In this document: positions 1,424 through 6,055 of the stretch, one piece after another
Numbering within the stretch: position 1 is the stretch's first letter
Layout of the letters: each line of letters begins with the position of its first letter
Source: Candidatus Aenigmatarchaeota archaeon
GTDB taxonomy: Archaea; Aenigmatarchaeota; Aenigmatarchaeia; QMZP01
Length of the DNA: 6,108 nt
Direction: 5' to 3'
NCBI GenBank assembly: GCA_030672315.1
Contig: DAOVGQ010000057.1
Location: 1-6,108 of the forward strand
Notes under the pieces: model-generated
What the model saw: the letters and a program-made list of their open reading frames with translations, nothing else
Database searches by the model: none
What the model was told of the DNA's origin: nothing
Translations under genes and position numbers: made by a program

Positions 1424-2307
1424 ATGGAAACGATAGCAGTGACAGGGGGCAAGGGGGAACAGGCAAGTCGACTGTAGCAGCCTCTCTGGCCGTGGTGATG
1501 GTCAGGGAAAGGAGGGTCCTGCTGGCTGATGCGGATGTTGAGTGCCCGAATGACCACCTAATCCTTTCTGTCAAAAGGAAGAAGCTCAGGGATGTCTACC
1601 AGCCCATCCCGGAATGGGACTTCTCCAGGTGCACGAAGTGCGGGAAGTGCGCCACGGTCTGCAAGCAGAATGCCATTGTTGCTGTCAAGGGAAAGTATCC
1701 CGCCTTTGTTCCTGACCTCTGCATAGGCTGCAAGGCCTGTATGGTGGCCTGCCCTGAGGAGGCGATAGGGATGGGCAGGAAAAAGATAGGAACGATTTTT
1801 ACAGGCAGGGAATATGGTGTCGACCTTGTCTCGGGCGAGCTAAAGCTCGGGCAGCTGGCCTCTGGGGAAATCGTGGTGGAGACCAGGAAGGCCTCAGAGG
1901 AGGTTGCCAAGAAGAGGAAGTCTGATATTGTCATTGTGGACTCGTCCGCTGGCGTGGGCTGCCCGGTCATAGCCTCCATACAGGGCTCTGACTTTGTGGT
2001 TGCTGTCACTGAACCCACTCCGTCGGCCCTGCACGACCTCAAGAGGGTTCTGTACATAGCCGACCACTTCAGGATTCCCAAGGGCCTGGTCCTGAACAAG
2101 TCTGACCTTGACAGGGGGTTTGCCAGGAAGATGGAGGCCTTTGCCAGGAAGGAGGGGATTCCTGTGCTGGGAAGGATACCCTACAGGAAGGACTTCGTGG
2201 AGTCTACTGTGAAGATGAAGCCTGTGGTGGCCTACAACAAGGATTACGAGGATGTGTTCCAAGGGATAGCAGAGAAGATTACTGCTTCTCTAGGAAAAGG
2301 TTCCTGA
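1424..2307 (+). CDS. MinD-superfamily P-loop ATPase with inserted ferredoxin domain; one-base frameshift inside the Walker A motif
   Basis: Cytoplasmic MinD/Mrp-like ATPase that should couple ATP hydrolysis to Fe-S or metal-cofactor transfer. The ATG at 1424 reads METIAVTGGKG, the normal first strand and start of the deviant Walker A motif, but then meets a stop at 1475. The rest, GGTGKSTVAAS onward, lies in the other frame and runs open to 2307. Adding one G to the G5 tract at 1453-1457 restores KGGTGKST and a normal protein of 294 residues. Later marks (restored numbering) are LLADADVECPN (34-44), two [4Fe-4S] motifs with Cys70/73/76/80 and Cys100/103/106/110, the Walker B-like VIVDSSAGVGCPV (170-182), and VLNKSDL (223-229) in the base-recognition region. 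The first cluster has Lys where the usual Pro follows its last Cys. A TTG at 1420 opens the long frame directly but would lose strand 1 and the signature lysine. The family is certain; intactness is not. Confidence 0.88.
1453..1457 (+). other. Frameshift point in a G5 homopolymer within the P-loop codons
   Basis: Reading from the ATG at 1424, codons run AAG GGG GAA and lose the family match. Reading one base back from the G tract gives GGG GGA ACA GGC AAG, the expected Gly-Gly-Thr-Gly-Lys. Six G instead of five would join the two frames exactly. The possible causes are a sequencing or assembly indel, a real inactivating deletion, transcript slippage, or a -1 ribosomal slip in which a GGG-reading tRNA re-pairs perfectly on the overlapping GGG. 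Confidence 0.85.
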
Positions 2308-2755
2308 AGTCCTCGCTTAGTGTTATGGCGTTGGTCTTTCCCAGAGGCCTTTTTTCTATCATTCCCCTGGCCTTCATCCTCTCCAGTGTCCTGAAGACCT
2401 TTACCTTGGAGATGCCGGTGAGGGTAGTAAGCCTTGCCTGGGGAAGCTCGCCCCTGTTATCTGTCAGGGTTTTCAATACCCTTGCCTCGTTCTCTCCCAG
2501 GAGGTTCAGGAGCAGGTCTCTGTCTGGTTTTGAATGCCTTCTTTCAAGCCTGGGTGTAAAGAGGTAATAAACAAGCGTTCCTATAAACAGGCCTGTGGAA
2601 CCCACGAAGGGTATGAAGAACGGGAGAGGGATTAAGCATCCGCAGACATCTCCGGACTCTATGGTTACCTGAACATAGAGAGACGTAACTGAGATAATGA
2701 AAACGAACACTGAAAGTATGAGTATTCCGAATACTATCTTTCTTGAGCTGTCCAT
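2279..2755 (-). CDS. Membrane-anchored winged-helix transcriptional regulator with an extracytoplasmic Cys-Gly-Cys pair
   Basis: A 158-residue protein with two predicted transmembrane helices (about residues 8-30 and 42-66) and a C-terminal winged-helix domain (about 84-150). The DNA-binding part reads LLNLLGENEARVLKTL, LTTLTGISKVKVFRTLERMKARGMIEKRPLGKTNAITLS (given here in two parts), with the recognition helix near residues 115-129 and the wing near 133-146. Positive charges at both ends (SSRK; RLERRHSK) place both termini in the cytoplasm, so the short loop with Cys38-Gly-Cys40 would face outward. Two-helix membrane proteins ending in winged helices are common in euryarchaea, mostly uncharacterised. 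It diverges from a secreted thioredoxin/CcdA pair, so a redox sensor is a reasonable inference. The ATG at 2755 has no ribosome-binding site, which fits a leaderless transcript. Its 3' end overlaps the convergent ATPase gene by 29 bases. Confidence 0.85.
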   Translation of the reverse strand: MDSSRKIVFGILILSVFVFIISVTSLYVQVTIESGDVCGCLIPLPFFIPFVGSTGLFIGTLVYYLFTPRLERRHSKPDRDLLLNLLGENEARVLKTLTDNRGELPQARLTTLTGISKVKVFRTLERMKARGMIEKRPLGKTNAITLSEDFRNLFLEKQ

Positions 2756-2761
2756 ATAATG

Positions 2762-2778
2762 GTTTCATATATTGAAAC
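2762..2778. promoter_or_regulatory. Operator-like perfect inverted repeat GTTTCA-N5-TGAAAC
   Basis: GTTTCA at 2762-2767 and TGAAAC at 2773-2778 form a perfect 6-bp dyad with a TATAT spacer. It lies between the shared TATA element and the predicted transcription start of the minus-strand regulator gene, where a bound repressor would block initiation. The 9-base word ATGGTTTCA at 2759-2767 recurs at 2791-2799, next to the second dyad. That this is the regulator's own operator is inferred from position and symmetry. Confidence 0.6.
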
Positions 2779-2792
2779 TTAAATATATATAT
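2779..2792. promoter_or_regulatory. Shared bidirectional TATA element for two divergent leaderless genes
   Basis: The AT-only run TTAAATATATATAT lies almost exactly midway between the two divergent start codons, 2755 on the minus strand and 2814 on the plus strand. Its centre is about 29-30 bases from each, close to the roughly 26-27 base TATA-to-start distance of archaeal promoters. Transcription in either direction would therefore begin at or within a few bases of the start codon. Neither gene has a Shine-Dalgarno sequence upstream, which supports leaderless transcripts. The adjoining GAAAC at 2774-2778 could serve as a BRE for the rightward promoter. Confidence 0.65.
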
Positions 2793-2793
2793 G

Positions 2794-2820
2794 GTTTCAG
2801 ACTATTAAATAGTATGAAAT
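2794..2820. promoter_or_regulatory. Operator-like 27-bp imperfect dyad overlapping the start of the secreted thioredoxin gene
   Basis: The two 13-base arms around A2807 match at 11 of 13 positions. The core ACTATTAAATAGT (2801-2813) is a perfect palindrome and the outer ends are GTTTCA (2794-2799) and TGAAAT (2815-2820). The dyad covers the predicted transcription start and the ATG at 2814, so a protein bound here should repress. The outer half-sites repeat the word of the first dyad with a 21-base offset. Confidence 0.6.
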
Positions 2821-3614
2821 TCGCAGTCATTGTGACCATGGTGCTGGTATTGCTGGCAACCACACCCCCCACCTCAGCTGAGGGTAAGGTGTGCGCAGTA
2901 TATATCACAGGTATAGGGTGTCCGAACTGTATTGTGACAGACCCTGTTATAACATCAGACTTCACCGCACAGAATCCGGATTATCTTGTTATAGAATACG
3001 AGATATACCACAAGAACTTTGACAATTACCCCACTGCTGATGGTTATTTCAACAACTACATCCCGCAGGGGGTGGGACACGGTGTTCCCTTCCTGATACT
3101 GAATGCCAACAATGTCTATATAGGGAGATATGAAGTGCTGGGAGCAGAAAGTGTGATTAAGAGCATGACCTCAAACGACTGCCCCATGCCGGACGGCTCT
3201 TCCGTGGATTTCGGGAATTTGGACATAACCACCTTGACCGGAAAACCGAATATATGGGCCAGGGGCAGGGTCCTGGTTTCAGAGGGAGGCGGCGCTGACA
3301 ACGAACTGCTGAAAGGCCTTTTGTTTGAAGAGGATATAGCGGGTCTGTTGGGGGGCTTGGGTTATGAAGAGATAGAGCCCGTGCCTGTTCAGCTGTCGGG
3401 AAGCCAGACTAACTTTGAGCATGCGGTCCAGCTGGGTGGCTGGATATTCCAGTGGAACGGTGAAGGCCTTGACGGGAATGGTGGAAACGGCTCCGGGGAT
3501 AACGGGGGAGGCAACAACGGTGATGCACAACATGCTGTATCTTTTTATTCAGTAGTCGCAATTTTAATCATAATAATTGCTGGGTTGTTTGTTTACTTCA
3601 AAAGGTTCAGGTGA
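2814..3614 (+). CDS. Secreted, membrane-anchored thioredoxin-like protein (CPNC)
   Basis: A 266-residue exported protein. The first 23 residues form a signal peptide (MKFAVIVTMVLVLLATTPPTSAEG), followed by a thioredoxin-like domain starting KVCAVYITGIGCPNCIVTDPVI. Its redox site is Cys36-Pro-Asn-Cys39, with Pro92 in GHGVPFLIL as the likely cis-proline; Cys27 and Cys123 are additional. Residues 130-215 form a second part I do not recognise. A Gly/Asn-rich linker (about 216-238) leads to a C-terminal transmembrane helix (243-261) and the basic end KRFR, so the domain sits outside the membrane, tethered at its C-terminus. The ATG at 2814 is chosen because it begins the signal peptide and fits the TATA spacing; a TTG at 2772 would put 14 extra residues before it. 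The next gene encodes a CcdA-type protein, its probable electron donor. The target of its thiols is unknown. Confidence 0.85.
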   Translation: MKFAVIVTMVLVLLATTPPTSAEGKVCAVYITGIGCPNCIVTDPVITSDFTAQNPDYLVIEYEIYHKNFDNYPTADGYFNNYIPQGVGHGVPFLILNANNVYIGRYEVLGAESVIKSMTSNDCPMPDGSSVDFGNLDITTLTGKPNIWARGRVLVSEGGGADNELLKGLLFEEDIAGLLGGLGYEEIEPVPVQLSGSQTNFEHAVQLGGWIFQWNGEGLDGNGGNGSGDNGGGNNGDAQHAVSFYSVVAILIIIIAGLFVYFKRFR

Positions 3615-3620
3615 AATAAA

Positions 3621-4454
3621 GTGGATGAAAAAAGAAAGAGGCTCGTCATTGCCCTTGTTCTCGTTGCTGCGATAGTGGCCTTCTTTGTAGTGGCCCAGAA
3701 CGCAGACCCTGGATATCTGAGGGGGCTTGGCCTGGTCCTTCCGCTTCCTTACTTCACGTTTATGATAGCAATCATAGACGGATTTAATCCCTGCACCATG
3801 TGGGTTCTGAGTTTCCTCCTGGTCCTGCTGATATCTGTTTCAGAGAGCAGGAAGAGGATTTTCACTGTCGGGTTCACGTTTGTTGTGGTTGTCTATATAT
3901 TCTATTTCCTGTTCATGGCTGCATGGCTGAACGTCTTCCTTTACCTGGGATTTCTTGACCCGGTAAGGATAGCCATAGGCCTCGTGGCCCTGATAGCAGG
4001 GCTCATAAACTGCAAGGAGTTCTTTGCCTTCAGGAAGGGCATAACTCTGATGATACAAGAGAGTCACAAAATTCCCCTGGTCAACAGGATAGAGGGAATG
4101 AAGGATGTCATAAAGCACGGTTCCTTCCCTGCCCTCATCATGGCCTCGGTTATCCTTGCATCGTTTGCATCGCTTGTCGAGCTACCGTGCACTGCCGGCT
4201 TTCCGATAATATACACCAAAATCCTCTCGGAAAGGGTGTTTGCAGAAAGCATGATTTACTATCTCTACCTGATGTTCTATAACCTGGTATATGTGATACC
4301 ACTTGCCGCCATAATAACCCTGTTCGGGTATTTCTTCAAGGGCAAACAGATAACCAAAGGCCAGATGCAGGCCATCAAGGTCTTTGGGGGCCTGATAATG
4401 ATTGCCCTGGGGATTATCCTTATATTCAACCCCGAGCTGCTGATGCTGGTCTAG
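3621..4454 (+). CDS. CcdA/DsbD-type thiol-disulfide electron-transfer membrane protein
   Basis: A 277-residue integral membrane protein with about seven hydrophobic segments, the first an N-terminal helix at 8-25. The two family hallmarks are present: DGFNPCTMWVLSFLLVLL (residues 53-70) with Cys58 and LVELPCTAGFPIIYTKIL (185-202) with Cys190. In CcdA and DsbD relatives this intramembrane cysteine pair passes electrons from cytoplasmic thioredoxin to proteins outside the membrane. Cys131 is extra. The start is GTG at 3621 with an AGGTGA ribosome-binding site at 3609-3614 that overlaps the upstream stop, so it is co-translated with the secreted thioredoxin-like protein. The natural reading is that this protein keeps the CPNC site of its neighbour reduced, perhaps drawing on the cytoplasmic thioredoxin encoded at 610-1002. 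Its stop lies within CTAG, sharing bases with the opposing gene's stop. Confidence 0.87.
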   Translation: MDEKRKRLVIALVLVAAIVAFFVVAQNADPGYLRGLGLVLPLPYFTFMIAIIDGFNPCTMWVLSFLLVLLISVSESRKRIFTVGFTFVVVVYIFYFLFMAAWLNVFLYLGFLDPVRIAIGLVALIAGLINCKEFFAFRKGITLMIQESHKIPLVNRIEGMKDVIKHGSFPALIMASVILASFASLVELPCTAGFPIIYTKILSERVFAESMIYYLYLMFYNLVYVIPLAAIITLFGYFFKGKQITKGQMQAIKVFGGLIMIALGIILIFNPELLMLV

Positions 4455-4951
4455 CTGCCTCTCTTTCTTTTCATCAGAAGCCTTGCAGTCCCCAGAAGGA
4501 AGTTCGTCCTCGGAACCCTTTTTATGTATCGCCTGTAGTCATCGCCGAACTTCTCGATGCCTGACCTGTCTGCATCCAGTATATCTATGTAGAATATCAC
4601 CATTACCACAAGGCCCAGGGCCGTGATTATCCAGTGCTGTACGATAAGGATTAGTGCGAGGCCGAGCAGTATCCCGGCCAGGAACTGCGGGTGCCTGCAT
4701 ATTGAATAGATTCCGCTGTCAACCAGGGTTGTGGTGTGGACAAAGCTCTTTCCCCTCGGCACACGACCCCTTCTCTTGAGGGTGTAGATGGGAAGCCAGC
4801 CGAATATGGCTGATATCCAGAGGACTACCCATCCGAGATTTCTGACAACCTCGTGGCCGGCCGGGTTGTAGAGGAAGAAACTCAGGACAATTTGGGATAT
4901 CATCACGACTGTCAGGACGGAGACCGAGATAATCATCTTCCAGTCTTTCAT
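4451..4951 (-). CDS. Isoprenylcysteine carboxyl methyltransferase / phospholipid methyltransferase-like membrane protein
   Basis: A 166-residue membrane protein with about four hydrophobic segments (7-28, 37-56, 91-106, 109-125). The C-terminal half carries the family pattern: DSGIYSICRHPQFLAGILLG (78-97) with Arg86-His87-Pro88, which binds S-adenosylmethionine in characterised relatives, and FGDDYRRYIKRVPRTNFLLG (135-154), equivalent to the family's F-G-x-x-Y-x-x-Y motif. Members methylate prenyl-cysteines, phospholipids or other small acceptors; the acceptor here cannot be told. The start ATG at 4951 has an excellent AGGAGG site on the minus strand at 4958-4963. It lies 36 bases after the coiled-coil gene, so it may be the last gene of a minus-strand operon. 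Its stop overlaps the convergent CcdA-type gene by four bases. Confidence 0.85.
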   Translation of the reverse strand: MKDWKMIISVSVLTVVMISQIVLSFFLYNPAGHEVVRNLGWVVLWISAIFGWLPIYTLKRRGRVPRGKSFVHTTTLVDSGIYSICRHPQFLAGILLGLALILIVQHWIITALGLVVMVIFYIDILDADRSGIEKFGDDYRRYIKRVPRTNFLLGTARLLMKRKRGS

Positions 4952-5989: not shown

Positions 5990-6055
5990 GGTGAAGGAGT
6001 ACATGCCGTCATTGACAGGATGAAACAAGACGGATGGTGAAGGAGTACATGCCGT
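5990..6055 (+). repeat. Perfect 20-bp direct repeat carrying a ribosome-binding site and ATG
   Basis: GGTGAAGGAGTACATGCCGT occurs at 5990-6009 and again at 6036-6055, 46 bases apart with no mismatch. Each copy holds GGTGA and AAGGAG, both Shine-Dalgarno-like, just before an ATG. The first ATG (6003) opens MPSLTG and a stop; the second (6049) opens MPYQKYGFCI and a stop. The flanking bases differ, so the repeat is sharply bounded. With only two copies and unlike flanks it is not a CRISPR array. Its function is unknown. Confidence 0.8.

Follow-up and report, generated by a model that had tools for sequence, protein, structure and literature searches.

A membrane winged-helix regulator with an outward cysteine loop and a candidate operator shared with thioredoxin-like and CcdA-like genes in an Aenigmatarchaeota archaeon

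To our knowledge, it has not been worked out how archaea perceive and adjust redox conditions outside their membrane, and few regulators have been described in DPANN archaea. This question is raised by a locus on contig DAOVGQ010000057.1 of Candidatus Aenigmatarchaeota archaeon (assembly GCA_030672315.1), of which we analyzed a stretch of 6,108 nucleotides, hereafter called the window. There, the gene of a small membrane winged-helix regulator lies head to head with the genes of a thioredoxin-like (Trx-like) protein and of a CcdA-like membrane protein (Table 1). We confirm the divergent layout described in an earlier note on this DNA, i.e. that the regulator shares its promoter with a secreted CPNC Trx-like gene followed by the CcdA-like gene. 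Does the regulator control these genes and, if so, what does it sense? Comparison of loci and genomes indicates that it very probably controls, via a dedicated DNA site, the genes carrying reducing power outside the cell. That its loop senses thiol redox is likely, though still a guess. Taken as a whole, we consider it rather probable that the locus encodes a one-component membrane switch governing the extracytoplasmic supply of thiols.

Table 1. Positions of the regulator, its putative DNA site and the divergent genes in the window
Feature	Position	Strand	Details
Membrane winged-helix regulator, 158 amino acids	2279..2755	-	Transmembrane helix 1 (TM1) 3-33, outward loop 34-43, TM2 44-66, DUF7343/MarR-type winged helix ~79-154
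Codons of Cys38-Gly39-Cys40	2636..2644	-	Outward loop of the regulator; conservation counts in the text
Operator palindrome GTTTCA-N5-TGAAAC	2762..2778	.	Exact inverted repeat, 6 bp from the regulator start codon
AT-rich 15-bp spacer with TATA box	2779..2793	.	TATA centre at ~2789, 25 nucleotides from ATG 2814
Third operator half-site GTTTCA	2794..2799	+	Between the TATA box and the start of the Trx-like gene
Secreted, membrane-tethered Trx-like protein, 266 amino acids	2814..3614	+	Signal peptide by eye; CPNC at residues 36-39 (2919-2930)
CcdA-like membrane protein, 277 amino acids	3621..4454	+	GTG start; Cys codons of invariant NPC (3792-3794) and PCT (4188-4190)

The palindrome, the TATA-containing spacer and the third half-site together form a composite operator, GTTTCA-N5-TGAAAC-(TATA)-GTTTCA, that spans 38 bp (2762-2799) of the shared promoter. 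The palindrome of the window was equalled in none of 100 shuffles. We then compared 37 loci encoding a regulator with a Cys-x-Cys (CxC) loop, namely the window, locus L001 of genome G001 and 35 further loci found in genomes of the same phylum as G001. A contig scan with the window regulator had given one locus only, the others being obtained by a genome search from L001; L067 (truncated regulator) and L069-L072 (no CxC) were left out. Between -60 and +140 of the regulator start, 28 of these 37 loci carry the palindrome with no more than one mismatch and 24 carry it exactly, each value being reached in 0/100 shuffles. Across 37 whole genomes, 48 exact sites were found, with at least one in 33 genomes and exactly one in 21, against 6 for the reversed-pattern control. 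The GTTTCA palindrome is therefore too rare to be a general promoter element, a hypothesis that was dropped. Among 20 loci examined around other palindrome sites, 15 have the site in a gene or at its edge, probably by chance, and five (L073, L074, L077, L085 and L091) have it between genes or before a start.

The composite pattern GTTTCA-N5-TGAAAC-N15-GTTTCA, with two mismatches at most, was found at 52 sites in 42 of 156 genomes (6 sites for the control). With a spacer one base longer and at most one mismatch, which served as a negative control, no site was detected in the 156 genomes. The 15-base spacer, although left free in the search pattern, holds a conserved TATA-like stretch, as counted on 39 of the 52 sites plus the window (12 were left out as chance matches or overlaps, plus G021:C7, a regulator promoter). 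The centre of this TATA lies 24-26 nucleotides from the start codon in 28 of the 42 listed cases, a distance that would fit a leaderless archaeal transcript, and the TATA is possibly common to both directions of transcription. The starts of half-sites 1 and 3 are separated by 32 bp, i.e. about three helical turns, which would place both on one face of the DNA.

The association of this site with CcdA-like genes extends beyond the loci in which the regulator is a neighbor. The regulator profile matched 146 of the 156 genomes, mostly through the winged helix alone. A strong hit (best E value ≤2.1e-29; G139:C32, which has the winged helix only, being excluded) was found in 38 genomes, a CcdA hit in 83, about one per genome, and both in 32. 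The set of weak regulators comprised 32 rows picked for near-full-length match among the matches listed. In all 32 genomes that have both genes, a composite site is located upstream of CcdA, on the same strand and at 3.2 kb at most, versus 2 of the 51 genomes (G053 and G145) that have CcdA and no strong regulator hit (Fisher test, p 6e-21, kinship among genomes uncorrected). In G053, the end of a contig carries what resembles the first codons of a regulator. In 7 of the 32 genomes, the regulator and CcdA lie on separate contigs, the contig break falling within the regulator in G020. In the six genomes with an unlinked regulator (G021, G032, G085, G133, G139 and G140), the site nevertheless precedes CcdA, with 0 to 2 mismatches (6/6 versus 2/51, Fisher 8e-7, kinship uncorrected). 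Conversely, nine CxC loci lack the palindrome beside the regulator: seven of them have no CcdA within 6 kb, and the two others (L060 and L062) carry the site at the start of the CcdA operon.

Furthermore, 24 of the 28 mismatch-free composite sites precede a CcdA operon. The four others precede a Trx-like gene in G003 (contig end) and G138, a membrane protein with CPAC in G152 and, in G130, an aminotransferase-V gene (by eye, cysteine-desulfurase-like), downstream of which lies a CPHC gene that matches the Trx profile. The link between regulator and target genes, which the earlier note had drawn from layout and motifs, is hence well supported computationally by the operator on the CcdA promoter, even where the regulator lies elsewhere. 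The description of the system as self-contained in that note was too strong, since other genes also carry the operator in G155, G152 and G130.

Linkage of the genes themselves points in the same direction. In 25 of the 37 CxC loci, the regulator has a CcdA-like gene at a distance of 6 kb or less, an arrangement that we estimate would occur by chance in about 1.5% of cases, and in 22 a script found it head to head with the gene of a Trx-like or CcdA-like protein (L052 is outside this count, its Trx-like gene being below the profile cutoff). The order of the genes varies, as they are fused, split, in operon or head to head depending on the locus. At the distant locus L103, the regulator has a CAC loop, and its gene shares bases with the beginning of a fused Trx-CcdA gene that reads in the same direction. 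The proposal that such regulators recur beside CcdA/thioredoxin pairs thus stands for most loci across the phylum, the exceptions being 12 in which CcdA is absent from the 6 kb around the regulator.

In the window regulator, Pfam recognized DUF7343 (E 5.7e-13, 49 bits for a cutoff of 27.6) and MarR_2 (E 1.6e-6, 28.6 bits for a cutoff of 27), both above the gathering cutoff. The AlphaFold model (mean predicted local distance difference test score, pLDDT, of 76) has the two helices, the loop and the winged helix at the residues given in Table 1, and Foldseek matched it mainly to MarR- and ArsR-type proteins. In 48 aligned homologues (one of them, P0022, labelled 'bacterium' by its source), Lys plus Arg average 2.2 before TM1, 0.08 in the loop and 4.1 after TM2, and 4 of the 48 have any in the loop. 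Because these residues are nearly confined to the two flanks, the loop is placed outside and the winged helix inside. On these computational grounds, the cysteine loop is predicted to be extracytoplasmic and the winged helix cytoplasmic. All the parts that the earlier note had ascribed to the regulator (two membrane helices, outward Cys-Gly-Cys, cytoplasmic winged helix) are thus present, and a loop facing the cytoplasm, which would have contradicted it, is at odds with the charge distribution.

The loop cysteines are strongly conserved, although unequally. Cys40 is found in 48 of the 48 homologues and in all 37 CxC loci, versus 46/48 and 34/37, respectively, for Cys38, so that the expected conservation of both is complete for Cys40 only. 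The residue between them is Gly in 21, Ser in 10 and Thr in 3 of the 34 loci that have the pair. No Cys occurs outside residues 36-42 in 40 of the 48 homologues. The TM2 region around IP, IP and GLFIG equals the cysteines in conservation, and neither His nor Met is conserved in the consensus of the CxC loop.

The identification of the two partner proteins in the window rests on alignments of their relatives; neither matched Pfam or NCBIfam. For the Trx-like gene, the ATG at 2814, 25 nucleotides from the TATA centre, is a likelier translation start than the TTG at 2772 given in the list of open reading frames. Its product comprises a Trx-like domain (residues 26 to ~125), a second beta domain (~146-213), a Gly/Asn-rich linker and, by eye, a C-terminal TM helix. 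C36, P37, C39 and P92 are invariant in the 22 rows of its alignment, and a further Cys pair, C27/C123, is nearly so. The predicted model has a Trx-like domain, with a weak best thioredoxin match (E 0.07); Foldseek found nothing at E 0.001. Weak PDB matches of the Trx-like profile include DsbA, thioredoxins and copper-resistance and copper-sensitivity proteins. The features of a secreted thioredoxin fold (CxxC, cis-Pro, Trx-like fold and signal peptide) are therefore all found, the signal peptide by eye and the fold through weak matches. The second beta domain (window 3249-3452) is kept in the relatives and has no family match in Pfam or Foldseek.

The alignment of 25 CcdA-like sequences has seven invariant columns, including both Cys in NPC and PC contexts (C35 and C167 of the alignment), i.e. 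the two conserved TM cysteines of CcdA/DsbD proteins. We use the label 'CcdA-like' because of these cysteine positions and of the fusion to a Trx-like domain, the two proteins forming a single one at several loci (for instance, 469 amino acids in L001). Among the relatives scanned, the DsbD_2 cutoff was passed by those of L039, which is in the alignment, and L074, which is outside it. The CcdA-like proteins of L033, L066 and L001 have no DsbD_2 match in the Pfam scan, in which those of the window and L001 match nothing, and a PDB search with the CcdA-like profile gave nothing. The regulators of the window and of L001 share 71% identity, against 22% for the CcdA parts; therefore, the reductase would have been exchanged while the regulator and the operator stayed. 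A role of CcdA in cytochrome c maturation was considered, then dropped, no search for cytochromes having been made.

From these data, we infer a switch in which a dimer of the two-helix regulator would hold its winged helices on GTTTCA-N5-TGAAAC, beside the transcription factor B recognition element (BRE) and the TATA box. As another half-site follows between TATA and start codon, the TATA would lie between sites and the Trx-CcdA promoter would most likely be repressed. Oxidation of the loop CxC, in which Cys38 and Cys40 would pair or Cys40 would form a mixed or inter-subunit disulfide, would shift the packing of the helices and free the DNA. The CcdA then made would pass electrons from the cytoplasm through the membrane, and the tethered Trx-like protein would use them to reduce external disulfides, possibly that of the regulator itself, which would constitute a negative feedback. 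The CGC motif has precedents as a redox-active pair in Erv2p and in small CxC peptides.

Several observations weigh against this reading. Besides the 12 loci without a nearby CcdA, six genomes have a strong regulator and no CcdA hit, two of which (G086 and G153) lack the composite site. Cys38 is gone in three of the 37 loci (L062, L065 and L066) and in two of the 48 homologues; therefore, an intramolecular CxC disulfide is no universal switch. These three loci nonetheless keep Cys40 and a linked CcdA-like gene. Hence, the situation that the earlier note regarded as refuting, homologues lacking CxC or unlinked to CcdA, applies to a minority of loci. In the AlphaFold model, residues 38-40 have a pLDDT below 50 and the loop is poorly modelled. 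The best Pfam match of the CcdA-like proteins of L039, L033, L066 and L103 is SfLAP, not DsbD; the SfLAP cutoff is passed by L039 and, just, by L103, whose DsbD_2 and DsbD_TM scores are below cutoff. SfLAP and DsbD belong to one Pfam clan. Moreover, the motif also occurs upstream of relatives without CxC (exact in L072, with two mismatches in L069 and L071, and at the paralogue locus L085, G139:C32). The site is therefore no proof that the CxC protein binds it; the motif may predate the CxC loop and may also be bound by other members of the family. Lastly, the regulator has a sister clade that resembles a copper regulator, and ancestral sensing of a metal may have preceded any redox role.

This sister clade emerged from a broader regulator profile, which gave 2791 protein matches at E 1e-10, of which 120 were listed, with source labels that include Aenigmarchaeota, Woesearchaeota, Altiarchaeota and 'archaeon'. 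Each of the 78 newly listed matches has at least one Cys in its first 75 residues and 77 have at least two, chiefly as C-x(n)-CP[HMF]. At E 1e-20, a profile of 32 sister proteins had hits in 86 of the 392 relatives of G001, and 42 of the 45 best hits were retained as sister loci (G141, G025 and G054 were left out). In the tree, a 100/100 branch separates the CxC set from the sister set; L069-L072 and L103 are on the CxC side, where the CxC group is separated from them at 93/76, the long branch of L103 being uncertain. Sister proteins have a similar length, two hydrophobic helices with a Cys loop between them and a DUF7343 winged helix (one member scanned, L127). However, their loop is mostly C-x(n)-CP, and GTTTCA-N5-TGAAAC is absent from the 120 bases upstream of all 29 located sister regulators (30 loci examined). 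Their neighborhood differs too: a CopA-like ATPase lies within 6 kb in 27/42 sister loci (a lower bound, many loci being cut by contig ends) versus 0/37 CxC loci, a GMxCxxC motif (CopZ/HMA-type) in 20/42 versus 1/37 (L040), and CcdA within 6 kb in 2/42 versus 25/37. Two sister-locus ATPases were scanned against the NCBIfam copper-ATPase cutoff, that of L113 being clearly above it and that of L127 just above. A calcium-type P-ATPase is near two of the 37 CxC loci. Loci L136-L175, L104 and L105 thus provide candidate archaeal external copper sensors.

Given this clade, copper sensing is a serious alternative and the main rival, even if we judge it unlikely. The CxC loop would then be an extracytoplasmic metal sensor, most likely of Cu(I), the two loops of a dimer forming a four-thiolate site, and the Trx-CcdA genes would repair thiols mis-oxidized by external copper, a repair of copper damage by thiol genes for which bacterial copper-sensitivity (Scs) loci are a precedent. 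The shared architecture, the partly His- or Met-containing C-x(n)-CP loops and the CopA linkage of the sister clade speak for it, as do the copper-related proteins among the weak matches of the Trx-like profile; a single Cys40 per monomer could also bind metal in a dimer. Yet the window regulator has neither the loop nor the CopA linkage of that clade, CopA-like ATPases and GMxCxxC proteins are absent or nearly so at CxC loci, the loop has no conserved His or Met, and the target genes are thiol-redox genes rather than exporters. The contrast between the two clades, as read from loops and neighbors, would speak for a redox role of the CxC branch. The cysteines might otherwise be structural, as a constitutive disulfide or dimer link, in a regulator that senses contact with the Trx-like or CcdA protein or envelope stress. 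The invariance of Cys40 but not of Cys38 and the conservation of the IP, IP, GLFIG region would fit such a role, which is improbable in our view since it leaves unexplained both the linkage to thiol genes (25/37) and the operator on CcdA (32/32).

As for the sign of the control, the regulator would act as an activator if the palindrome, upstream of BRE/TATA, recruited transcription factors; this variant overlaps the thiol-switch reading, and we regard it as possible, if somewhat doubtful. The palindrome directly adjoins the BRE position, and Haloferax OxsR is reported to activate from a motif upstream of BRE/TATA (PMC9426492). However, a protein bound at the third half-site, between TATA and start codon and at fixed spacing, would be expected to block initiation. 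Repression is slightly favored because of this half-site and because the palindrome covers the expected position of the BRE. Finally, a gene order that arose by chance, persisted by common descent and involves no regulation is very improbable. The counts are indeed not independent (for instance, G148, G151, G154 and G155 are near copies), but the operator stays with CcdA in all six genomes in which the regulator is unlinked, gene order varies and the type of CcdA was exchanged.

A thiol-responsive membrane switch of this kind would differ from the nearest regulators described so far. With a predicted DNA-binding domain and at least one TM region, the window protein falls among the transmembrane transcription regulators (TTRs), at least one of which was found in 367 of 404 archaeal species; the words 'thioredoxin', 'disulfide', 'cysteine' and 'MarR' do not occur in the main text of that survey, as available (PMC10269533). 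TTRs including CadC and ToxR are, according to the portions of the sources consulted, also one-component proteins with a cytoplasmic DNA-binding domain, a membrane anchor and external cysteines that can pair (PMC3096576, PMC10269533). CadC, described there as a membrane regulator with a periplasmic disulfide, has an N-terminal DNA-binding domain, one TM helix and a large periplasmic domain (PMC3096576). By contrast, the window regulator has a second TM helix, a loop of ten residues between the two, a MarR-like winged helix (DUF7343/MarR_2) at its C-terminus and no periplasmic domain, which sets it apart from the ToxR/CadC family. The target of CadC is the cadBA lysine decarboxylase operon, not thiol supply. 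The archaeal OxsR, SurR and MsvR are, like the proposed regulator, DNA-binding proteins with a cysteine switch (PMC9426492). However, the switch of OxsR is Cys24 at the dimer interface of a single winged-helix domain, and the consulted part of the study describes no membrane-embedded external loop (PMC9426492). A redox Cys in the cytoplasmic DNA-binding part, as in OxsR, is not what the distribution of Cys among homologues indicates here.

The pair formed by the two partner proteins resembles CcdA/DsbD and its secreted thioredoxin-like partners, such as CcmG and ScsC, in its two TM cysteines (NPC, PCT) and its secreted CxxC thioredoxin fold, often fused in these genomes. It differs from them in the lack of a Pfam match and in relatives that are sometimes nearer to SfLAP than to DsbD_2. 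We know of no membrane one-component regulator beside CcdA/DsbD-type genes. In searches on archaeal thioredoxin/CcdA, membrane regulators, DsbD redox sensing, the CXC motif and DPANN copper, judged mostly from titles and abstract openings, no such system was apparent; no paper with DUF7343 was found, and those on COG2512 were unrelated by title. At this level, the view that no named system has this composition holds.

Other genes accompany these regulators. A small membrane protein with an N-terminal CP[LVA]C[TS][AV]A is encoded beside regulators of both clades (11/42 sister and 1/37 CxC loci; examples are L091:2720-3268, L038:11108-11608, L114-L117, L124 and L129); it has no Pfam or NCBIfam match in L091 and no NCBIfam match in L129. 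In G155 and G152, its gene has a composite site, and a few genes further on lies an ABC ATPase (SufC-like by eye). In or near the Trx-CcdA operon or the regulator, sometimes first after the operator, are found a LUD-domain iron-sulfur protein (confirmed in L060 and L065) and/or a CCG-domain HdrB-like protein (confirmed in L093); L061, L063, L098 and L104 are listed with such genes (LUD and/or CCG) by eye only. In the window, a MinD/ParA-type ATPase with a 2x4Fe-4S insert (1420-2307) is convergent with the regulator, with a 29 bp overlap, and genes judged similar by eye occur next to the regulator or close to it in L001, L039, L052 and L103. The window also encodes a CPPC thioredoxin without evident signal peptide (610-1002), in a gene run with CoA-binding and FeMo-Co-type proteins, and a PEMT/isoprenylcysteine-methyltransferase-like membrane protein (4451-4951), convergent with CcdA with a 4 bp overlap. 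Near its end, GGTGAAGGAGTACATGCCGT is present twice (5990-6009 and 6036-6055, 46 bases apart, by eye).

More generally, DPANN and other archaea could have a large unnamed family of two-helix winged-helix regulators that read external chemistry through a short Cys loop and signal by the packing of their TM helices, a CxC branch governing disulfide reduction via the GTTTCA operator and a C-x(n)-CP branch governing copper export; we put this forward as a tentative proposal. In the former branch, one small protein with a 38-bp operator and an electron-transfer module make up a pair that recurs across a phylum, and the copper branch offers a contrast. If true, this would be a very small design for transmembrane signalling, which could also be turned into a genetically encoded reporter of thiol state outside the cell.

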